A stretch of DNA of 64,000 nucleotides from Bacillus sp. SJS (GTDB taxonomy: Bacteria; Bacillota; Bacilli; Bacillales; Bacillaceae): NCBI RefSeq assembly GCF_000732485.2, contig NZ_JAQV02000016.1:1-64000 (forward strand), read 5' to 3'. Positions 1,621-50,012 of this stretch are shown in pieces. The position numbers and the translations under genes are program-made. The number at the start of each line of letters is the position of its first letter. Position 1 is the stretch's first letter. The notes beneath the pieces were generated by a model. That model saw only the letters and a program-made list of their open reading frames with translations. It was not told the DNA's origin and searched no databases.

Positions 1621-1631
1621 GAGTGGCGGAT

Positions 1632-1709
1632 ATGATCTTTTTATTAATCCTCGTACTTGGTTTGTCAGCATATTTAATTGATGCCCTTATTCATCCTGAA
1701 AAATATTAA
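1632..1709 (+). CDS. kdpF: KdpF, small subunit of K+-transporting ATPase
   Basis: The 25-residue single-helix peptide MIFLLILVLGLSAYLIDALI, followed by HPEKY, has the KdpF layout: one membrane helix ending in a Y-L-I/V-x-A-L-I motif and a short polar tail. In Escherichia coli KdpF is 29 residues and stabilises the KdpABC complex. AGGAG at 1618-1622 supports the ATG at 1632, and kdpA follows 23 bp later. It is a plausible complete gene. Confidence 0.85.
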   Translation: MIFLLILVLGLSAYLIDALIHPEKY

Positions 1710-1732
1710 TTCGAATGCCGGAGGAGAAAAAC

Positions 1733-3406
1733 ATGGATTTTGTTCAAATGGGAATTGTCCTGCTGCTTGTTGTGCTGCTGGCTATTCCGATGGGGAAATA
1801 TATTGCACGCGCCTTTTCGCTGGAAGAGACGAAGCTGGACCGGGTGTTCGGCTTTGAGAAAATCATATATAAGTTATCTGGAATAAAGCTTTCATCGATG
1901 ACTTGGAAGCAATATGCGATTGCCGCTTTGCTTTCAAACATTGCAATGTTTGCCATCACCTATCTCGTTGTTAGACTGCAGCACGTTCTGCCGGGAAACC
2001 CGAGCGGAATTGCAGCGATGGACCCGTTTTTATCCTTTAATACCATTTCAAGCTTTTTAACGAATACGAACCTTCAGCACTACAGCGGCGAGTCAGGATT
2101 ATCCTACCTGTCACAGATGATGGTTATTATGTATTTAATGTTTACGACTCCTGCTACAGGGCTTGCCATCTGTATCGCATTCTTTAGAGGCCTGACAGGG
2201 CAAAAGAGCATGGGGAACTTTTATGTAGACTTGGTTCGTGCCCATACCCGGATCCTGATTCCGCTTTCAATAGTAGTTGGTCTTGTTTTAGTCAGCCAGG
2301 GTGTTCCGCAAACGCTAAGCGGTACAGTAAATGCCGAAACACTTGAAGGCGCCCAGCAGCAAATTGCCCGCGGTCCTGTTGCGGCACTAGAATCGATTAA
2401 GCATTTAGGAACAAACGGCGGAGGATTTTTTGGAGTCAACTCTGCCCATCCATTTGAAAACCCGAATCCATTTACAAACGTTTTAGAAATTCTTTCGATG
2501 TTCCTCATTCCGGCATCTTTGCCATTTGCCTTTGGACATATGGCGAAAAGCCGCAAGCAGGGGTGGATCCTGTTCAGCTCAATGGGCATCATTTTCCTAG
2601 CCTTCCTGGCTGCCGCCTATTTTGCTGAAAGTAACGGAAACCCAGCGCTTGCAAACATCGGCCTTTCCCAGGAAAACGGAAGCATGGAAGGGAAAGAGGT
2701 CCGATTTGGAATTGCCCAAAGTGCCCTGTTTACCACGGTAACAACAGCGGCAACTACAGGAACAGTCAACAATATGCACGATACGCTGACTCCGCTTGGC
2801 GGAATGGTTCCTCTCGGATTGATGATGCTGAACAACATCTTCGGCGGTGACGGTGTCGGTACGATCAATATTCTGATGTATGCGATTCTCGGTGTTTTCC
2901 TCGCTGGCCTGATGGTCGGACGAACGCCTGAATTCCTCGGCAGAAAAATTGAAGCAAAAGAAATGAAGCTGATTGCGATTACGATTCTTGTTCATCCGCT
3001 GATCACTCTTGTTCCATCAGCGATCGCTCTCGCTACCGAAATGGGCTCATCAGCGATTTCCAATCCAGGATTCCACGGAATTTCACAGGTCGTGTATGAA
3101 TTTACTTCAGCCGCTGCGAACAATGGATCTGGATTTGAGGGCCTTGGCGATAACACACCGTTCTGGAATATCTCCACAGGGATAGTGATGCTGCTAGGAC
3201 GCTACTTGTCCATTATTGCCATGCTTGCCGCCGCCGGATCACTACTTAGCAAGAAGCCGGTGCCGGAAACGCTTGGAACATTTAAAACCGATAATATGAC
3301 GTTTATGACGATTCTTATATTCACCGTAATTGTTGTTGGAGCCCTTACATTCTTCCCAGTGCTTGCACTAGGACCGATTGCAGAATGGCTGACGATTGCG
3401 AACTAA
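1733..3406 (+). CDS. kdpA: KdpA, K+-binding channel-like subunit
   Basis: This is the membrane subunit of the high-affinity K+ ATPase that binds and translocates potassium. I chose ATG 1733 because GGAGGAG lies 6-8 bp upstream; the upstream frame start at 1715 has no such site. The resulting 557 residues equal the family length. Selectivity-filter-like segments are present: TNLQHYSGESGLSY, GTNGGGFFGVNSAHPFENP, TTAATTGTVNNMHDT and SAAANNGSGFEGLG. There are about ten membrane helices. It is followed by kdpB after 27 bp. Confidence 0.97.
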   Translation: MDFVQMGIVLLLVVLLAIPMGKYIARAFSLEETKLDRVFGFEKIIYKLSGIKLSSMTWKQYAIAALLSNIAMFAITYLVVRLQHVLPGNPSGIAAMDPFLSFNTISSFLTNTNLQHYSGESGLSYLSQMMVIMYLMFTTPATGLAICIAFFRGLTGQKSMGNFYVDLVRAHTRILIPLSIVVGLVLVSQGVPQTLSGTVNAETLEGAQQQIARGPVAALESIKHLGTNGGGFFGVNSAHPFENPNPFTNVLEILSMFLIPASLPFAFGHMAKSRKQGWILFSSMGIIFLAFLAAAYFAESNGNPALANIGLSQENGSMEGKEVRFGIAQSALFTTVTTAATTGTVNNMHDTLTPLGGMVPLGLMMLNNIFGGDGVGTINILMYAILGVFLAGLMVGRTPEFLGRKIEAKEMKLIAITILVHPLITLVPSAIALATEMGSSAISNPGFHGISQVVYEFTSAAANNGSGFEGLGDNTPFWNISTGIVMLLGRYLSIIAMLAAAGSLLSKKPVPETLGTFKTDNMTFMTILIFTVIVVGALTFFPVLALGPIAEWLTIAN

Positions 3407-3433: not shown

Positions 3434-5458
3434 ATGAATACGAAGCGGAAAGCGACGATGACAAATGATATTGTCAAACAGGCTTCAATTGATGCCTTTA
3501 AAAAATTAAATCCAATGACGATGGCGAAAAATCCTGTTATGTTCGTGGTGGAAATCGGTTTTATCGTCACGCTCATCCTGACACTGGCTCCCAGCCTGTT
3601 CGGTCCTGGGGAAGGCGCCGGCTATAACGGTATTGTCAGCATCATCCTGTTCATTACCATTCTTTTCGCTAATTTTGCTGAAGCGTTAGCGGAAGGACGG
3701 GGAAAGGCTCAAGCCGATTCGCTGAAAAAAACGAAACAGGACACGAAAGCAAAGCTTCTTCAAAAGGATGGCTCTTACAAGTCGGTCAGCTCCACAGATT
3801 TGCGGAAAGGCGACATTGTCCTAGTTGAAGCGAACGAGCTGATTCCAAGTGACGGAGAAATTATTGAAGGGGTATCGGCAATTGATGAATCAGCCATTAC
3901 CGGAGAATCTGCTCCTGTTATTAAAGAGTCAGGCGGCGATTTCAGCTCTGTAACGGGCGGAACAAAAGTCATCAGTGACGCTATTAAGATAAAAATTACT
4001 ACAGATCCGGGTGAATCATTCCTTGACCGGATGATCGGGCTTGTCGAAGGGGCAAAACGCCAAAAAACACCGAATGAAATTGCATTGAATACATTGCTTG
4101 TCAGCTTGACCCTGATTTTCCTGATTGTTTGTGCCACACTGCTTCCAATCTCATCTTATGTGGATGCAGCCGTTCCGATTGCGACCTTGATTGCCTTGCT
4201 CGTCTGCCTCATTCCAACGACCATCGGCGGCTTGCTTTCAGCGATTGGGATTGCTGGAATGGACCGGGTAACGCAGTTTAATGTCATTGCGATGTCTGGG
4301 AAAGCAGTAGAAGCTGCTGGGGACATCAACACCATTATCCTCGATAAAACCGGAACGATTACACATGGAAACCGGATGGCTGCTGACTTTGTGGCCGTTG
4401 GAGGAACAAGCAAAACAGAACTGAACAGAGTAGCGATGGAAACCTCTCTTTTCGATGAAACACCGGAAGGCCGCTCTGTGATCGAGCTTGCGAGAAAGCA
4501 GGGAGCGGCGGAAGAAAAACGGGATGGCTCTGAAGGAGTCGAGTTTAAAGCGGAGACCCGGATGAGCGGAACGGATTTCGCTACAGGAAGAAAGGTAAGA
4601 AAAGGGGCCGTTGATGCCATAAAGGAATATGTGAAAGATCAAGGCGGAACAATTCCATCCGATCTTGATGACCAAACCACGATGATCGCAACAGAGGGCG
4701 GAACTCCGCTTGCAGTCGCAGACGGAAATCGCATTTTGGGCTTAATTTACTTAAAAGATACCGTGAAACCAGGGATGAGAGAACGGTTTGATGAGCTACG
4801 CAAAATGGGAATCAAAACCGTCATGTGTACAGGGGATAACCCGCTTACAGCCGCTACAATTGCGCGCGAAGCAGGAGTGGATGACTTCATTGCAGAAGCA
4901 AAGCCTGAAGATAAAATTGCCGTCATTAAAAAAGAACAAGCGGAAGGAAAATTGGTCGCAATGACCGGGGATGGAACGAATGACGCCCCTGCACTTGCTC
5001 AAGCAGACGTGGGTCTTGCCATGAACAGCGGAACCATCGCCGCAAAAGAAGCAGCCAATATGGTGGACCTTGATTCGGATCCAACGAAAATCATTGAAGT
5101 TGTGGCCATCGGCAAACAATTGCTCATGACCCGCGGAGCGCTGACAACTTTCAGTATCGCCAATGACATTGCAAAATACTTTGCCATTATCCCTGCCATG
5201 TTTATGCTTGCGATTCCACAAATGCAGGCGCTGAACATCATGCAGCTTGATTCACCGCAAAGCGCGATTCTTTCTGCTCTAATCTTTAATGCAATCATTA
5301 TTCCGCTGCTCATACCGCTTGCAATGAAAGGCGTCAAATACATTCCGATGAGCGCTACGAAGCTATTAAACCGCAACCTGTTTATTTATGGATTCGGCGG
5401 TGTCGTCGCTCCGTTCGTTGGAATTAAAATCATTGATATGATTCTATCTGTATTTTAA
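3434..5458 (+). CDS. kdpB: KdpB, P-type ATPase catalytic subunit
   Basis: The ATP-hydrolysing subunit of the Kdp complex, a 674-residue P-type ATPase. The phosphorylation motif DKTGTIT has its Asp at residue 304. The actuator motif TGES ([12 protein letters not shown]), the KdpB nucleotide-binding region and the hinge [18 protein letters not shown] are all present and intact. AAGGAG lies 7 bp before ATG 3434. It is cotranscribed with kdpA and kdpC and assembles with them in the cytoplasmic membrane. Confidence 0.97.
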
Positions 5459-5481
5459 ATCGAGAGAAAAAGGTGAAAATC

Positions 5482-6036
5482 ATGTTTAAAAACTTACGAA
5501 TTGCCCTAGTCCTTCTTGTCATCTGCGGCATTGGCTATCCGCTGCTGATGACAGGAATTGCACAAGCCGTCATGCCGGCGAAAGCGGATGGAAGTCTGAT
5601 TGAGAAAGATGGAAAGGTGATTGGCTCTGAGCTGATCGGACAGACGTTTAAAGATCCTTCCTACTTTACAGGACGTGTTTCTTCTATAGAAAACAATGCA
5701 GCAGGTTCCGGATCAGGGAACTATGCACCATCAAATGCCGATATGATTGAGCGTACGAAAAAAGATATCGCAGCCTTTCTAAAGGCGAATCCGGATGTAA
5801 AGAAAAGCGATATTCCGGCAGACCTGCTGACCAACTCAGGCTCCGGACTGGACCCGCACATTTCACAGATGGCAGCAGAAATTCAGATTCCGAGAATCTC
5901 CAAGCTTCGCAATTTGGATGAAAACGAGCTGAAAGACTTGATTAAAAAACATACAGAAGGCCGCCAGTTTGGGCTGTTCGGCGAGCCGAGAGTCAATGTG
6001 CTGGAACTGAACATGGAGCTTGGTCAGAAAAAGTAA
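5482..6036 (+). CDS. kdpC: KdpC, accessory subunit of K+-transporting ATPase
   Basis: The single-span accessory subunit that helps KdpB bind ATP. One N-terminal helix (LRIALVLLVICGIGYPLLMT) is followed by the family signature ELIGQTFKDPSYFTGRVSS, the SGSGLDPHIS motif and a C-terminal RQFGLFGEPRVNVLELN. A GTG at 5473 is possible, but AAGGTG 6 bp before ATG 5482 makes 5482 the better start, giving 184 residues. The KdpD-like gene starts 20 bp downstream. Confidence 0.95.
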   Translation: MFKNLRIALVLLVICGIGYPLLMTGIAQAVMPAKADGSLIEKDGKVIGSELIGQTFKDPSYFTGRVSSIENNAAGSGSGNYAPSNADMIERTKKDIAAFLKANPDVKKSDIPADLLTNSGSGLDPHISQMAAEIQIPRISKLRNLDENELKDLIKKHTEGRQFGLFGEPRVNVLELNMELGQKK

Positions 6037-6056: not shown

Positions 6057-8384
6057 ATGGCCGATCAATTTAGACGAAAATCACCTGAGGAGCTTCTGGA
6101 CTCCATTTCCAAACTCCATCGCGGCCGTCTGAAAATCATATTAGGAGCGGTAAGCGGTGCGGGAAAAACGTATCATATGCTGCTTGAAGGCCATTCTTTA
6201 AAGAAAAAAGGGCTGGACGTCGTGATCGGTGTCATCGGCAGAGGGGAAAACCGCCCGAAAACAGAAGAAAAAATCGGAACGCTTGAAACGGTTCTTCCCA
6301 TCCAATGGCGCCGCGGAGACAGCATTCGCTATGACTTGGATCTGGAGCGTTTGATTGAACGGAACCCTGAGGTTGTACTCGTCGATAATCTGGCAAAAAG
6401 AAACCGCCCCGGAGCAGAAAATCCAAGCAGGCTGGACGATGTACTCAAGCTCCTTGAGCACGGAATCAGTGTCATCACCACCTTAAATATTTATGAACTG
6501 AGCGGTGCCAGGCAGGTAGCCGAAAAGCTTACGGGAATTAAAGTGAAAATTGAGGAATGCCTTCCAGAGGACACTTTAACCAGGGCAGACGAAGTCAAGC
6601 TTCTCGATGTTCCGCCTGAAGCCATTTTGAAAAGGCTTCAGGAAGGATGTCCGGAAGGTCTGTACGGGGAACTGTTCAGTCAGGGGAGCCTGACCGCTTT
6701 GCGTGAGCTTGCTCTTCGTTTTTTGGCAGGAGAAGTGGGAGAGGATCTTGAGGAATACCGGGAAAAACAAGGGCTGATCGGAGCCTCCGGTGCCTCGGAG
6801 CGAATCCTCGTCACAGCGCAATATCACTGGAACGGCTCAATCTTAATCAGAAGAGGGCACCAGATAGCCAAGCGGCTCGGAGGAACCCTGAACGTCGTTT
6901 GCTTTATCCCGCACAACCGGTCGATCACCTCCGAGCAGGCGGCATTTAAACGATCGATGAAAAAACTGACAGAGAAATTGGAAGGGAAATTCGAGGAGCT
7001 GCCGCTTTTAAATGAAGATGCGCCTTCCGCCATCGTTTCCTATGCAACGAGGAAAAACATCACCCGGATTGTAATGGGCCATTCAAAAAAGAGTGTATGG
7101 GAGGAGCGAATTCAGGGATCGGTTGTGAATAAGATTCTTCGCCATACTCGGAATATCGATATTTTCCTTGTCCCGGACAGGACCGAAGCTGAGGGAGAGC
7201 GGCTCCTGCCCGCTAAACAGTCCGAGCTTCCTGTTAATCCTTTTAAGCGGCTCTCGGCAGATGAAATGGCCGATGAAATCAGTAGAATCCGGCGGGGAAC
7301 ACTGAAAATTTATATCGGTGCCGCACCGGGTGTCGGTAAAACATACACGATGCTGAGAGAAGCGAATGAGCTGAAAAAAGAAGGAATCGACATTGCCATC
7401 GGTCTTCTTGAAACCCATGGACGCAAGGAAACCGAGGAGCAGGTAGGGGACCTTGAGCTTATACCGAGAAAACAGATTCCCTACAAAAATGTCGTCTTAG
7501 AGGAAATGGATACAGCTGCGATTATTAAGCGGAATCCTGAAGTTGTCCTTGTCGATGAACTCGCCCATACAAATGTCCCGTTCAGCAAGTATTTAAAACG
7601 GTACGAGGATGTTGAAGAAATTCTTGAAGCGGGAATTTCGGTTATTTCCACCGTGAACATTCAGCACCTGGAATCTCTGAATGACAGTGTTGAGCAAATA
7701 ACAGGGGTAAGAGTACGTGAAACGATTCCGGATCGGGTCTTAACCGCTGCGGATGAAATTGAACTGATTGATATCTCTCCAAAAGCCCTCAGGCAGCGGA
7801 TGAGGGAAGGAAACATATACGCCCGGGAAAAAGTCGAGCAATCGCTTCAGAACTTTTTCAAAACCGGCAACCTGATTGCGCTGAGAGAACTTGCGCTAAG
7901 GGAAGTAGCAGATGACGTAGATGAAAGGCTTGAATCATTAGAGCGAAGCCAAACGATGCGGGGGCCGTGGAGAAAGCAGGAAACGATTTTCGTCTGCATC
8001 AATCTCCATCCCGAAAGCGAAAGGCTGATTCGCAGAGGCTTCCGCATTTCCTACCGGCTTAAAGCGAAATGGTATGTGATGTTTGTAAAAGGTCCGGCAC
8101 CTCTTTCAATGGAAGAGGAAGCCCTTTTGAAAAAGGCCAGGATGCTGACCGAGCGTCTTGGTGGAGTCTTTTTGCTGCGGGAAACAAAAGAATCAGGGGA
8201 AATTGTCCAGAATATCGTCATCCATCTGATTGATAAAAAAGCGACCCAGCTCATAGTCGGACACACATCCAGATCAAGGGTGGAAGAGCTATGGAAAGGG
8301 CGGGTCGTCCAAAATCTGCTGAAAGAAACGAGAAATTATGATGTTCTCGTTGTTGCGAATCCAACCGACGCAGCTAAAGGATAG
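6057..8384 (+). CDS. kdpD: KdpD-like sensor with duplicated KdpD-USP module and no kinase
   Basis: A soluble 775-residue protein built of two consecutive KdpD N-terminal modules, each a KdpD ATP-binding domain followed by a USP-like domain. Copy 1 spans about 1-375 and copy 2 about 390-775. Copy 2 is canonical, with Walker A GAAPGVGKT (Lys428), ETHGRKETE and VLVDELAHTN. Copy 1 keeps Walker A (GAVSGAGKT, Lys37) but has GRGENR in place of ETHGR and DNLAKRN in place of DELAHTN. There are no membrane helices, no histidine-kinase domain and no kdpE nearby. Kinase-less KdpD forms of about half this length are known in Bacillus and cyanobacteria. The USP domain of Staphylococcus aureus KdpD binds c-di-AMP, but I do not see that exact binding motif. 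Start ATG 6057 has GGGGGCGG upstream. Confidence 0.9.
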   Translation: MADQFRRKSPEELLDSISKLHRGRLKIILGAVSGAGKTYHMLLEGHSLKKKGLDVVIGVIGRGENRPKTEEKIGTLETVLPIQWRRGDSIRYDLDLERLIERNPEVVLVDNLAKRNRPGAENPSRLDDVLKLLEHGISVITTLNIYELSGARQVAEKLTGIKVKIEECLPEDTLTRADEVKLLDVPPEAILKRLQEGCPEGLYGELFSQGSLTALRELALRFLAGEVGEDLEEYREKQGLIGASGASERILVTAQYHWNGSILIRRGHQIAKRLGGTLNVVCFIPHNRSITSEQAAFKRSMKKLTEKLEGKFEELPLLNEDAPSAIVSYATRKNITRIVMGHSKKSVWEERIQGSVVNKILRHTRNIDIFLVPDRTEAEGERLLPAKQSELPVNPFKRLSADEMADEISRIRRGTLKIYIGAAPGVGKTYTMLREANELKKEGIDIAIGLLETHGRKETEEQVGDLELIPRKQIPYKNVVLEEMDTAAIIKRNPEVVLVDELAHTNVPFSKYLKRYEDVEEILEAGISVISTVNIQHLESLNDSVEQITGVRVRETIPDRVLTAADEIELIDISPKALRQRMREGNIYAREKVEQSLQNFFKTGNLIALRELALREVADDVDERLESLERSQTMRGPWRKQETIFVCINLHPESERLIRRGFRISYRLKAKWYVMFVKGPAPLSMEEEALLKKARMLTERLGGVFLLRETKESGEIVQNIVIHLIDKKATQLIVGHTSRSRVEELWKGRVVQNLLKETRNYDVLVVANPTDAAKG

Positions 8385-10055: not shown

Positions 10056-10062
10056 ACGTTAG

Positions 10063-10096
10063 AACCCCGCTAACTGGGATGGCGGGGTTTTTGTTG
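10063..10096 (+). terminator. Intrinsic terminator after the lysine permease
   Basis: AACCCCGC and GCGGGGTT pair across an 11-nt loop and are followed by a T-rich tract (TTTTTGTTGTT). Confidence 0.9.
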
Positions 10097-10159
10097 TTGT
10101 GTGATGTGGTCGTTGATAGATATTCCTAAAAACAGTAATACCAGTAATTTGGTTCACAA

Positions 10160-10405
10160 CCAGCCAGGGAAGAATGCCAGGCAAACGTCTGAAATCCAGG
10201 AATGCCAGGGAAGAATGCCAGGCAAACGTCCAAAATCCAGGAATGCCAGGGAAGAATGCCAGGCAAACGTCCGAAATCCGGGAATGCCAGGGAAGAATGC
10301 CAGGCAAACGTCTGAAATCCAGGAAAGCCAGGGAAGAATGCCAGGCAAACGCTCCGAAACCAGGAAAGCCAGGAAAGAATGCCAGGCAAACACTCCAAAT
10401 CACTT
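10160..10405. repeat. Six tandem copies of a 41-bp minisatellite
   Basis: Units begin at about 10160, 10201, 10242, 10283, 10324 and 10365. Each contains the core CCAGGGAAGAATGCCAGGCA followed by AACGTCYGAAATCCAGG. The first four are nearly identical and the last two diverge. The unit contains no stop codon in several frames, so open frames run through it on both strands. I see no ribosome binding site or known protein, and treat it as non-coding. Confidence 0.9.
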
Positions 10406-10523
10406 GACCAGTGTCCCCCATCCCCTACCCTACAACTAAAGTCCGAGACAAAATTCCTCCTTTCCATGTAAGAATATTCGGCTTATTCCTGATATACTAA
10501 CGAATAAGAAGGAGCGAAACGGC

Positions 10524-11664
10524 ATGAACCAGGATGAAAGACGGATAAATGAATTAAAAACACTAAAAACAATTGCGGAGAAGCTGAATGAGGGCAATGA
10601 ACTTGCCATTCTTCTTCCTGATGTATTAAAGGAGCTCGTTTTATTGGCTGATATGAAGACGGGCTGGATTTTCCTTGTTGATGATCAAGGAAATCATTCG
10701 CTAGCTGCTGATTATTCATTGCCAAAAGCTCTTATGTTCGAGGAAAAGAAACCAATGTGCGGTGCGAGCTGCTGGTGTATGGATCGTTTTCGAAACGGCC
10801 GTTTGACGCAGGCTGCGAATATTTTAAGCTGTCAGAGAATTGAAGAAGCGATTGAATATAATTATGGTGATACCGAGGGCGTGACTCACCATGCAACTGT
10901 CCCGTTAAGTGCAGGGGGAGAGAGGTTTGGCCTGCTTAATATTGCAGCACCGGGGAAGAAGCATTTTTCTGATGAGGAGCTTGCTTTGTTAGAATCGGTT
11001 GCACTCCAGATTGGGTCGGCGATTAAGCGGATCCAGCTTGCTGAGAATGAACAGAAGCTTGCCCTCATTGCGGAGCGAAATCGACTTGCCCAGGATCTTC
11101 ATGACTCGGTCAATCAGCTGCTCTTTTCGATTTCCCTTACAGCGGGCGGAATGAAGGAGATGACTGGGGAGCCGAAGCTTAAAGAAATGCTTACCTATGT
11201 GCAGGATTTGTCTCAGGAAGCCTTGTCTGAAATGAAATCGCTTATTTGGCAGCTAAGACCTTCAGGATTGGAGCGGGGATTAACCTGTGCGCTTAAGCAA
11301 TATGCTGATATGCTTGGACTTACAGTTCATTGTGCGGTAGAAGGCGTCCATAATCTTTCGCCTAAAATAGAGGTGGTGCTCTGGAGAATCGGCCAGGAAG
11401 CGCTGAACAATATCAGAAAACATGCAGGGGTTTAGCGGGTCATTAACTTTTTCCAGATCCAAAGATAAGGTACAGCTTGTGATTAAAGATAAAGGGCGCG
11501 GATTTCATTGCCCGAAGTCATCCTCTGATCTTCCTTCCCTCGGTTTGCAGGGAATGAAACGAAGAGCCGAGCAGCTGAACGGAACATTTTTCATCCGTAG
11601 CAAGCCAGGGGCAGGGACCACTATACAAGTAACGATTCCATTAAAGGGAGCTGAAATGCCATGA
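10524..11664 (+). pseudogene. GAF-domain sensor histidine kinase (NarL partner), frameshifted
   Basis: Residues 1-303 hold a GAF domain with cysteines at 79, 83, 85 and 103 and the HisKA_3 box LAQDLHDSVNQLLFS (His193). They end at NIRKHAGV with TAG at 11433. The rest of the ATPase domain (DKGRGF, GLQGMKRRAEQLNG, PGAGTTIQVTIP) continues in the next frame from about 11430. Removing one base from the GGGGTTT run (11427-11433) restores one protein of about 380 residues, so a single-base insertion splits the gene. The whole resembles AirS/YhcS and LiaS-like kinases. It overlaps the response regulator start by 4 bp. The frameshift may be natural or an assembly error. Confidence 0.85.
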
Positions 11665-12293
11665 TTCGAATTCTTCTTGCAGACGACCATCCGGTTGTGC
11701 GGAGGGGGCTTGGCTTTTTTCTGAGCATGCAAAAGGATATGGAAATTGCCGGAGAGGCCTCGAATGGGGCAGAGGCTCTGCATCTGGCCGGAGAGCTGAA
11801 GCCGGATATTATTCTGATGGATCTCAGTATGCCGGAGATGGATGGAGTCCAGGCGACAAAAGCCATTAAGGCTGATTTTCCGAAGATGAAAATTTTGATT
11901 TTGACGAGCTATGCGGATCAGGATCATGTCATACCTGCAATTGAGGCGGGTGCATCAGGGTATCAGCTCAAGGATGTGGAGCCGGGAGAGCTTGCTCAAA
12001 GCATCCGTGCAATTCTAAACGGGGAGAATAAGCTGCATCCAAAAGTAACGAATCATGTACTCGCCCATCTTTCGAATGGAAAAAAAGAGAAAAATCCTCT
12101 GACTGAATTGACTGCAAGAGAGCTTGACGTGTTAAAAGAAATTGCAAAGGGAAAAAGCAACAAAGAGATTGCTGCATCCCTGTTTATCACCGAAAAAACA
12201 GTTAAATCACATGTTTCCAATCTCCTTCCGAAGCTGCAGGTTTCGGATCGCACACAGGCGGCGCTGCTTGCAGTAAGAGAAGGATTGGCCTAG
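11661..12293 (+). CDS. NarL/LuxR-family response regulator
   Basis: The receiver domain has the acidic pair DD (8-9) and phosphoacceptor Asp54 in ILMDLSMPEMDG. A LuxR-type helix-turn-helix follows (LTARELDVLKEIAKGKSNKE then TVKSHVSNLLPKLQVSDRTQ). At 210 residues it has standard length. Its ATG overlaps the end of the broken kinase gene, so the two form one transcriptional unit and a natural pair. It is similar in build to AirR/YhcR and LiaR. Targets are unknown; the flavin reductase gene 11 bp downstream may be in the same operon. Confidence 0.92.
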   Translation: MIRILLADDHPVVRRGLGFFLSMQKDMEIAGEASNGAEALHLAGELKPDIILMDLSMPEMDGVQATKAIKADFPKMKILILTSYADQDHVIPAIEAGASGYQLKDVEPGELAQSIRAILNGENKLHPKVTNHVLAHLSNGKKEKNPLTELTARELDVLKEIAKGKSNKEIAASLFITEKTVKSHVSNLLPKLQVSDRTQAALLAVREGLA

Positions 12294-12304
12294 GAGGATG
12301 ACAG

Positions 12305-12835
12305 ATGAATGTATTAGTACTAAGCGGCGGACCGAGAAAACACGGCCGTTCAGCTATTGCGGCAAAATGCATTGCAGAAAACCACAAAACGGATCTAATT
12401 GATCTGTCCCAGTTTGCTCTGCCGCTTTTTACTGGAGAAGAAAGTCAGCCAGCCGATTCTCAAGTAAAAAAGCTGAAAGAGGCAGCTGAAAAAGCAGATG
12501 GATTTGTGCTGCTGTCGCCTGAATACCACGGGGGAATCTCAGGTGCTCTAAAGAATGCTCTCGATTTTCTGAATAGCGGTTATTTTGCCCAGAAGCCGGT
12601 TGCTTTAGTATCTGTAGCCGGAGGAGGAAAAGGCGGAATTAATACACTGAATCAAATGAGAACCATCATGCGGGCGCTCTACGCCAATACGATTGCCAAG
12701 CAGCTCGTTTTGGATCCGCATTGCTTTGATATGGAAGCGAAGGCTTTACATGCAGAACCTGCTGGGCTGGTAAATGAGCTAATGGATGAACTGGCTCTTT
12801 ATTTGGAAATTTCAAAGCAAATCAGAAAGCTGTAA
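12305..12835 (+). CDS. yhdA: NAD(P)H-dependent FMN reductase / azoreductase (YhdA)
   Basis: This 176-residue flavodoxin-like reductase has the FMN-phosphate loop SGGPRKHGRS near the start and LLSPEYHGGISGALKNALDF in the middle. It agrees closely with B. subtilis YhdA (Azr), including PVALVSVAGGGKGGINTLNQ and KQLVLDP. It reduces quinones and azo dyes with NAD(P)H through FMN. Neighbours yhdB, yhdC, nsrR and spoVR keep the B. subtilis order, supporting orthology. AGGAGG lies upstream of ATG 12305. Confidence 0.93.
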   Translation: MNVLVLSGGPRKHGRSAIAAKCIAENHKTDLIDLSQFALPLFTGEESQPADSQVKKLKEAAEKADGFVLLSPEYHGGISGALKNALDFLNSGYFAQKPVALVSVAGGGKGGINTLNQMRTIMRALYANTIAKQLVLDPHCFDMEAKALHAEPAGLVNELMDELALYLEISKQIRKL

Positions 12836-12841
12836 AAACAG

Positions 12842-12880
12842 AAAGGAAGGCAAAGTCCGAGCGGACTGCCTTCCTTTTTT
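12842..12880 (+). terminator. Intrinsic terminator after yhdA
   Basis: AAAGGAAGGCA and TGCCTTCCTTT with inner GTCC/GGAC pairs form a long stem ending in six T. It lies between convergent yhdA and yhdB and may serve both. Confidence 0.9.
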
Positions 12881-12888
12881 GTACTTAT

Positions 12889-13131
12889 CTATGTTAAAGG
12901 AACAGCATGTTCCTGGATTTCCGGATGTGCGGCATGATCGATATATCGAAGCAATGTGTAAAGATTCTGTTCGATCATGGTGTAGTCATGCTCAAAATTA
13001 TAAGCATGCAAAAAATGTTCAATTTTTTTAGAAAGAAAATCATCGTGGGTCCGCACCATTAAGATCAGCAAATTGTCCCACTGGGAACGGTGCGTGTAAT
13101 ATAAAGCTTTATCATAATCAACGGTATTCAA
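12889..13131 (-). CDS. yhdB: YhdB-like small protein
   Basis: The product is about 80 residues and begins LNTVDYDKALYYTHRSQWDN, as in B. subtilis YhdB (Pfam YhdB family, function unknown). I chose TTG 13131 because AAGGAGG lies 7-8 bp before it; the longer frame from ATG 13149 would place that site inside the coding region. It is convergent with yhdA, as in B. subtilis. No membrane or signal segment is visible. Confidence 0.85.
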   Translation of the reverse strand: MNTVDYDKALYYTHRSQWDNLLILMVRTHDDFLSKKIEHFLHAYNFEHDYTMIEQNLYTLLRYIDHAAHPEIQEHAVPLT

Positions 13132-13305
13132 ATGATTTTCCTCCTTCATTAGGAGTCCTTCTTAATGTGCGCACACTCGTGAGAATTCCTCTGGGGAAAA
13201 CTTGGCTTCCGCTAAAAACGGGATTGGGAGTTACTGCACAGGATAAGATTAATTTGTTTCGTTCGGGACAAAATAAGATAAAATCCTTTTACGGAGGAGA
13301 TTTTG

Positions 13306-49454: not shown

Positions 49455-49880
49455 AGCAGCAACCTCCTTATGTAGTAAGCGAATGATGACGAGGGACAGG
49501 CTGGGGGAGAAAGGGTTCCCTTTATCTTTACCCAAACATTCCCTAGAGTGTACAAATTTACAGCAAAAACACATTTTTATCCTTGCTGCTTTTTTGCCCT
49601 TTCCTATTATACTGTTTTACAGGCAATAGGGAAGGGGTTATTTAAATAAAAATGAATTCGTTTTCTTTTTAGTGAAAAACGATTGGTATTCATCGTACTT
49701 TTTATTAGTCATGCCCCATTCCTTACTAATCTTTTCACAAGCAATTTCACGCATCGTAAAGCAACCACAAGCAATATGAAGATAGAGTGCCATAACAAGG
49801 AAAAAATACGACTATATAGTCAAAAACTCACATTTACAAAGTTCTATCCAGGGAGTACGATATACATGAAAATTTTACTG
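49455..49880. other. Intergenic region between nupC and the second riboswitch
   Basis: The 425-bp stretch is AT-rich and holds the nupC promoter region. It has no supported gene; the plus-strand frame at 49683-49886 lacks a ribosome binding site and runs into the riboswitch. A weak promoter candidate for the riboswitch, TTTACA-N17-TACGAT, lies at 49833-49861. Confidence 0.4.
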
Positions 49881-50012
49881 GCTTAATCCCGTAAACACGG
49901 GAACGGAGGAACCAATTTTTTTGGGGCTAATTCTGCTTTAGCAGAAGGGATGAAAGGACTCTTTCGCCATCCTGCCCGTCAGCTAACTTCGTCGGCTAAA
50001 GCGAAGGAGGTC
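49881..50012 (+). promoter_or_regulatory. Second c-di-AMP riboswitch (ydaO/yuaA type)
   Basis: The same conserved blocks as the copy near 1 kb are present: GGGAACGGAGGAACCAATTT, TTGGGGCTAATTCTGC, CTCTTTCGCCATCCTGCCCG, TCAGCTAACTTCGTCGGCTA and AAGCGAAGGAGG. It controls the downstream CBS-domain and mgtC-like genes, a less usual target. Confidence 0.95.

Follow-up and report, generated by a model that had tools for sequence, protein, structure and literature searches.

An apparently undescribed tandem KdpD in Bacillus sp. SJS and other Bacilli, joining a predicted serine kinase to a predicted pseudokinase

The DNA analysed here (the window) is a stretch of 64,000 nucleotides from Bacillus sp. 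SJS (contig NZ_JAQV02000016.1, positions 1 to 64,000), in which the Kdp pump operon kdpFABC is followed directly by a gene for a 775-residue protein built of two KdpD-type modules (Table 1). A Pfam search of this protein returned two matches to the KdpD domain PF02702, the first covering residues 21-227, and two Usp (universal stress protein) domains; the first KdpD-plus-Usp half is called T1 and the second T2. No histidine-kinase domain (HisKA/HATPase) and no KdpD membrane domain (DUF4118) was detected in the protein by Pfam or NCBIfam, and ten full-length KdpD proteins show these domains. An initial annotation of the window had described a kinase-less chain of two KdpD ATPase and Usp modules, had quoted motifs for both copies, and had placed a cyclic diadenosine monophosphate (c-di-AMP) riboswitch before the operon. 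The architecture, the motifs (GRGENR at residues 61-66 and DNLAKRN at 110-116 in T1; ETHGR at 452-456 and DELAHTN at 500-506 in T2), the coordinates, and the riboswitch were all confirmed. The two halves share 39-41% protein identity and 47.8% of bases in codon-aligned DNA (519 of 1086), and a duplication of identical halves by faulty assembly, which had been named as a risk, is therefore ruled out; a tandem-type open reading frame (ORF) was also present in all six genomes examined from the genus, namely the window's own, another from the species, and those of four further species. When the whole genome was searched, PF02702 matched only the two halves of the tandem and DUF4118 matched nothing, so that neither search found the kinase-bearing KdpD that might have done the regulation instead. 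The claim that KdpE is absent stands in part: an E. coli KdpE query gave 23 matches, the best of which was 39% identical and lay on another contig, and these look like general response regulators, so that there is no clear KdpE and a diverged one is possible. Three proteins with a diadenylate-cyclase domain are encoded in the genome.

Table 1. Features of the kdp locus in the window.
Feature	Coordinates	Strand	Evidence and remarks
c-di-AMP riboswitch RF00379	995..1136	+	upstream of kdp operon; cmscan 78.3 bits, gathering 38
Small ORF, 29 aa	1531-1620	–	just 5' of kdpF
kdpF	1623..1709	+	Pfam PF09604, 34.8 bits; start taken as GTG 1623, ATG at 1632
kdpA	1715..3406	+	TIGR00680, PF03814
kdpB	3434..5458	+	TIGR01497; TGES Ser159 at 3908-3910, equivalent of E. 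coli Ser162 target
kdpC	5473..6036	+	PF02669, NF001454
Tandem KdpD/Usp protein, 775 aa	6057..8384	+	ATG start; directly after kdpFABC; ORF, Pfam, NCBIfam
T1 KdpD domain, predicted ATP-binding pseudokinase	6117..6737	+	PF02702, 199.8 bits
T1 Walker A GAVSGAGKTY	6144..6173	+	residues 30-39, kept
T1 Walker B VVLVDNLAKRN	6372..6404	+	Asp110 kept, Asn111 replaces catalytic Glu
T1 LNIYE	6483..6497	+	Tyr146-Glu147 in place of Gln-His of intact modules
T1 Usp domain	6789..7178	+	PF00582, 28.4 bits; better conserved of the two
T1 Usp beta1-alpha1 loop QYHWNGS	6819..6839	+	near-invariant across asymmetric tandems
T2 KdpD domain, predicted active atypical serine kinase	7290..7919	+	PF02702, 325.3 bits
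T2 Walker A GAAPGVGKTY	7317..7346	+	residues 421-430
T2 Walker B VVLVDELAHTN	7542..7574	+	catalytic Glu501
T2 Usp domain	7974..8360	+	

In E. coli, the KdpD domain of KdpD has been shown to act as an atypical serine kinase: it phosphorylates KdpB at Ser162 and halts the pump, and this phosphorylation requires its Walker A, W39/R190 pair, D109, and E110 (PMC11018627; 2024). These positions were mapped from E. coli KdpD onto an alignment of 157 modules (66 T1, 66 T2, 15 from single-module proteins, and 10 from histidine-kinase KdpDs whose kinase domains were confirmed by Pfam), which were taken from the window and from loci L015-L038, L062, and L092-L151, with L037 left out as a copy of L015 and with no use made of additional loci that cover the same places. 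Based on the Gln-His motif at 145-146, the 66 tandems comprise 44 asymmetric ones (43 distinct T1), the type found in the window, and 22 symmetric ones in which both halves are intact. The T2 modules of the asymmetric tandems keep all required residues in 44/44 cases (Walker A, the aromatic/Arg adenine pair, and the Asp-Glu Walker B, with Tyr or Phe at 39). Their T1 partners keep G30, GKT, Tyr39, D109, and R190 in 43/43, retain E110 in only 3 (G in 22, N in 8, D in 4, S in 3, H in 2, and Q in 1), have Tyr followed by Glu or Asp in place of Gln-His in 43/43, and are without the equivalents of H63, K123, and Y125 that are conserved in other modules. E110 is kept elsewhere in both halves of the symmetric tandems (22/22 and 22/22), in single-module proteins (15/15), and in histidine-kinase proteins (9/10). 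Because this half alone has lost catalytic residues while preserving those that bind ATP, the T1 KdpD domain is well supported as a pseudokinase, and we infer that it binds ATP. That T2 is a KdpB kinase follows from its close homology to E. coli KdpD. The active/pseudo pair of the initial annotation agrees with this selective loss in copy 1. On the tree, the Glu or non-Glu state at 110 changes at least twice within T1, and the loss may have been repeated, or reversed. It could be argued that T1 has catalysis of its own, with Tyr-Glu/Asp substituting for the lost Glu, and phosphorylates another target or site. The fixed Tyr145-Glu/Asp146, several further residues fixed only in T1, and the three modules still carrying Glu110 would suit this, but residue 110 otherwise drifts as though its identity had ceased to matter, equivalents of H63, K123, and Y125 are gone too, and the proposal is regarded as highly improbable.

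Ratios of nonsynonymous to synonymous substitution rates (dN/dS) between the window and genome G005 were 0.066 and 0.010 for the T1 KdpD and Usp domains and 0.016 and 0.020 for those of T2; the corresponding values against G001 were 0.075, 0, 0.011, and 0.099. Against G004, of the same species, they were 0, 0, 0.31, and 0.61, from changes too few to weigh, and in pairs with G002 or G003 silent sites were mostly saturated. Some residues are fixed in T1 only (e.g., Trp84, Asp93, Arg117, Tyr146, Glu147, and Gln269 across 38 thinned loci), and evolutionary distances in T1 and T2 are correlated across the halves (r 0.63-0.83). These patterns indicate that T1 is under purifying selection and is not decaying. 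A functionless, decaying duplicate would account for the lost catalytic residues and for the long T1 stem branch described below, but it is hardly credible in view of the low T1 ratios against G005, ATP-binding residues fixed in 43/43, the motifs conserved only in T1, and the occurrence of the tandem in all six genomes of the genus and in five named genera.

The tandem, first noted in a single genome, is real, but it proved to be an architecture that recurs across the class Bacilli. In a survey of 80 genomes of the family, two full PF02702 matches in one long ORF were confined to the genus of the window; in the other genera there were ORFs with a single module (384-421 residues), a single fragment of 184 residues in G053, weak matches below the cut-off, or none. 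At a threshold of E up to 1e-10, PF02702 was found in 144 of 398 sampled genomes of Bacilli, 64 with one match and 80 with at least two, which are not necessarily fused. A scan of genome contigs gave 19 loci, of which 17 hold full-length tandems, from five named genera (Metabacillus, Bacillus, Gottfriedia, Paenibacillus, and Cohnella), the other 2 being histidine-kinase KdpDs in metagenome bins. A further 60 stretches were hand-picked from the family and class surveys, and the counts of tandem types are therefore not prevalences. Two loci (L113 and L114) each contain two separate, adjacent single-module genes, which supply 4 of the 15 single-module rows; this arrangement resembles how the state before fusion would be expected to look. 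Near the asymmetric-tandem operon of L137 lies a very divergent histidine-kinase KdpD (10375-13200; Pfam DUF4118, HisKA, and HATPase), the Walker B of which reads DRLEARN, with Asp-Arg instead of Asp-Glu.

In a tree of 156 kinase domains, asymmetric T1 formed one clade (100/99) and asymmetric T2 another (98/79), and both reappeared when the set was thinned to 80 rows and its longest branch removed. Only for the asymmetric type is a single origin supported. The T1 stem branch is long (1.19 changes per column) and the placement of T1 is unsure. When all T1, asymmetric and symmetric, were held as one clade, the constraint was not rejected (approximately unbiased test, p 0.286), and the idea that the tandem arose twice or more was withdrawn. 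Three genomes, G317 (L094/L095), G352 (L096/L097), and G325 (L100/L099), each have one asymmetric and one symmetric tandem; their asymmetric T1 modules are the most divergent branch. Conservation of the two halves is crossed between domains. Over 926 of 946 pairs of asymmetric tandems (20 near-identical pairs dropped), mean identity of the kinase domain was 0.56 in T1 versus 0.73 in T2, in that direction in 99% of pairs, and mean identity of the Usp domain was 0.54 in T1 versus 0.45 in T2, in that direction in 89%. Column bootstraps on all 44 asymmetric tandems excluded zero in both directions. No crossover was seen in the symmetric tandems (T1/T2 0.69/0.75 for the kinase domain and 0.52/0.60 for Usp).

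The Usp domain of S. aureus KdpD contacts c-di-AMP at columns of the beta1-alpha1 loop (PDB 7ji4; PMC8214093). The near-invariant loop of asymmetric T1 (Q 95, Y 100, H 86, W 91, N 100, G 100, and S 93%) falls on these columns, where it reads Q-x-H-x2-G, and the T2 loop is variable; in the symmetric tandems it is the T2 loop, not that of T1, that is largely fixed. T1 is therefore probably the sensor half, as judged from this pattern. The ligand is most likely c-di-AMP by analogy with relatives: the short KdpD of D. geothermalis is activated by c-di-AMP and not stimulated by K+ (PMC11018627), and c-di-AMP binding is reported for a single-module KdpD from Bacillus (PMC11302148). The suggestion in the initial annotation that K+ might be sensed directly was not upheld, as the protein has no transmembrane (TM) or GAF domain and the short D. 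geothermalis protein showed no stimulation by K+. An AlphaFold model of the tandem, of low confidence (mean predicted local distance difference test score 69.7, predicted template modelling (pTM) score 0.41), has the two Usp domains paired as in tandem-type Usps. Of the built-in heterodimer envisaged earlier, the Usp/Usp contact thus finds some agreement in a weak model, but packing of the kinase domains is not decided by it. T1 might instead be a mere scaffold, for example as the pseudo-dimer partner of the T2 Usp or kinase domain, with no sensing, a structural ATP site, and any ligand on the T2 Usp. Consistent with this are the modelled pairing, the retention in T1 of ATP-binding but not catalytic residues, and the match of the T2 Usp, but not that of T1, to S. 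aureus at two of the five c-di-AMP positions; the T1 loop, near-invariant at ligand-contact columns where that of T2 varies, exceeds what a passive scaffold would need, and we consider a scaffold unlikely, though to be reckoned with.

A c-di-AMP riboswitch precedes kdpA in 21 of 28 asymmetric loci (32 of 44 scanned, 28 with a complete kdpA), in 10 of 10 scanned single-module operons, and in L113 but not L114; it was found in 0 of 11 symmetric loci (13 of 22 scanned, 11 with a complete kdpA, L108 being excluded for its broken kdpA). The riboswitch was rejected as a marker of asymmetric tandems, since the scanned single-module operons carry one too. At three of the seven asymmetric loci without a riboswitch (L122, L123, and L125), a histidine-kinase KdpD adjoins the operon and the tandem is retained, and kdp transcription in B. 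thuringiensis was unaltered when the single-module kdpD was deleted (PMC6488665). Both observations are compatible with an action on the pump itself and not on its gene. Direct action on the pump, as initially proposed, is also supported, by analogy, by the published KdpB serine-kinase activity of the KdpD domain (PMC11018627). Control could conceivably be by binding only, the tandem titrating c-di-AMP or attaching to KdpFABC without phosphorylation, and overexpression of the single-module Bacillus KdpD did lower cellular c-di-AMP (PMC11302148); however, retention of all KdpB-phosphorylation residues by T2 in 44/44 is hard to explain without catalysis, which makes control of this kind distinctly improbable. 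Two c-di-AMP riboswitches in series were seen before kdpA at L019, L021, L026, L027, L129, L130, and L140. The window itself contains a second c-di-AMP riboswitch elsewhere, at 49870-50012 on the + strand (72.8 bits).

The reading towards which we lean is that the tandem is a one-chain regulator of the Kdp pump without membrane domains, in which T2 brakes KdpB, T1 is its fused regulator and probably its sensor, and a nucleotide bound to Usp switches T2 on. When K+ is plentiful, the T2 serine kinase would phosphorylate Ser159 in the TGES motif of KdpB and the pump would stop. T1 would act as a regulatory partner: its KdpD domain would still hold ATP-Mg despite having lost the catalytic Glu and adjoining residues of the active site, and its Usp domain would provide the more conserved candidate ligand pocket. 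Binding of a nucleotide (most likely c-di-AMP) to the Usp domains, chiefly that of T1, would switch T2 on; a single messenger would then govern, through the riboswitch and the tandem, how much of the pump is made and how active it is. This reading draws on the sequence for the tandem, operon, riboswitch, selective T1 loss, purifying selection, and crossed conservation, and on published relatives for KdpB kinase activity and control by c-di-AMP; we infer ATP binding by T1, its part as sensor, the Usp pairing, and the identity of the ligand. A more specific form, held tentatively, is an unrecognised, split-role class of kinase, in which duplication was followed by a division of work: catalysis stayed in T2, and T1 turned into an ATP-holding pseudokinase. 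A new pocket in the T1 Usp, Q-x-H-x2-G, would read cellular c-di-AMP or some other nucleotide and control T2 by means of a pseudo-dimer of the two Usp domains within the chain.

Several points weigh against this interpretation. The TGES motif is common to P-type ATPases generally, and its presence in the KdpB of the window, being no test of the target, was dropped as non-specific evidence. Kinase activity, ligand binding, and structure of the tandem proteins are predictions from sequence. The conservation counts are drawn from related sequences and are not independent events. Glu110 is kept in the T1 of L106, L126, and L128, and the Glu/Asp gained at 146 might conceivably act as a base. The S. 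aureus motif (A/G/C)xSxSx2N occurs in 0/66 T1 and 0/66 T2 modules (0/44 each in asymmetric tandems), and it was detected in the positive row, L148. T2, not T1, keeps A/G/C-242 (44/44) and Tyr/Phe-271 (41/44); T1 has Ala at 242 in 9/44 and Tyr/Phe-271 in none of 43 rows, which speaks against T1 as the c-di-AMP site. Absence of the motif is not decisive, because the short KdpD of D. radiodurans, kin to that of D. geothermalis, is also without it. The pairing of Usp domains in the model could be the prior of the network for Usp folds, and the S. aureus KdpD Usp is monomeric (PMC8214093). Finally, in one Bacillus species deletion or overexpression of the single-module kdpD changed kdp or ktr transcripts under some conditions (PMC11302148), and the tandem, too, may affect transcription.

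Comparison with known systems places the tandem nearest to the short KdpD proteins (e.g., D. geothermalis; NF038185, 'KdpD_non_kinase'), with which it shares both domains, the position after kdpC, and the absence of a histidine kinase. The short proteins have one module of about 370 residues, whereas the tandem has two in 775 residues, one predicted to be dead. Against the NF038185 cut-off of 550 bits, the whole tandem scored 788.2 and the T1 and T2 halves 311.4 and 482.5, each below it, and four single-module proteins scored 554-620. The 'non-kinase' label of this family is contradicted by the serine-kinase work (PMC11018627). With respect to E. coli KdpD, T2 matches every required residue, with Tyr/Phe for Trp39, and is predicted to be active, whereas T1 is without the catalytic Glu and the tandem without the TM/GAF K+ sensor. 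The motif of the S. aureus Usp (7ji4) is absent from both tandem Usps, T2 having kept no more than its initial position and the distal Tyr/Phe. Tandem-type Usps (E. coli UspE, 5cb0; YdaA, 4r2k) likewise have two Usps per chain, paired similarly to the AlphaFold model; in the window protein a kinase domain sits between them and the pairing comes from a low-confidence model. No description of a tandem, duplicated, or pseudokinase KdpD was found in the literature searched, as judged by titles and the opening lines of abstracts and with most subscription journals outside its coverage, and the main text of PMC11018627 makes no mention of a duplicated, double, or pseudo KdpD; the 'tandem serine histidine kinase' of that article denotes something other than a two-module KdpD. 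The asymmetric tandem is thus apparently undescribed in print, as the initial annotation had supposed of a fused active/pseudo pair.

Two further features of the window lie outside this argument. The 29-residue ORF before kdpF probably encodes a single-pass membrane peptide near or overlapping kdpF (gap of -7 to +14 nt), and a crude pattern for such an ORF matched in 26 of the 62 loci with kdpF found (70 examined). The window peptide had no match in Pfam or NCBIfam; for three versions from other loci, NCBIfam gave none and Pfam, tried with two, gave one sub-threshold match (E 0.18). At 10059-10467, ORFs overlapping on both strands consist of a short repeated peptide and are probably a non-coding repeat array.

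As far as its residues and distribution indicate, the asymmetric tandem is a real, recurrent variant of the short KdpD serine kinase. With catalysis and sensing seemingly split between the halves of one chain, control of the KdpD serine kinase becomes directly testable, and the single, symmetric, and asymmetric forms offer a ready comparison set. The results also suggest that 'non-kinase potassium sensor', the name used by NCBI, is a misnomer for a regulator common among Bacillus and Paenibacillus relatives. Regulation by pseudokinases may exist among P-loop (Walker-type) serine kinases, and if the split of roles is true, bacteria would have in this chain an equivalent of pseudokinase/kinase pairs that is based on a P-loop serine kinase.
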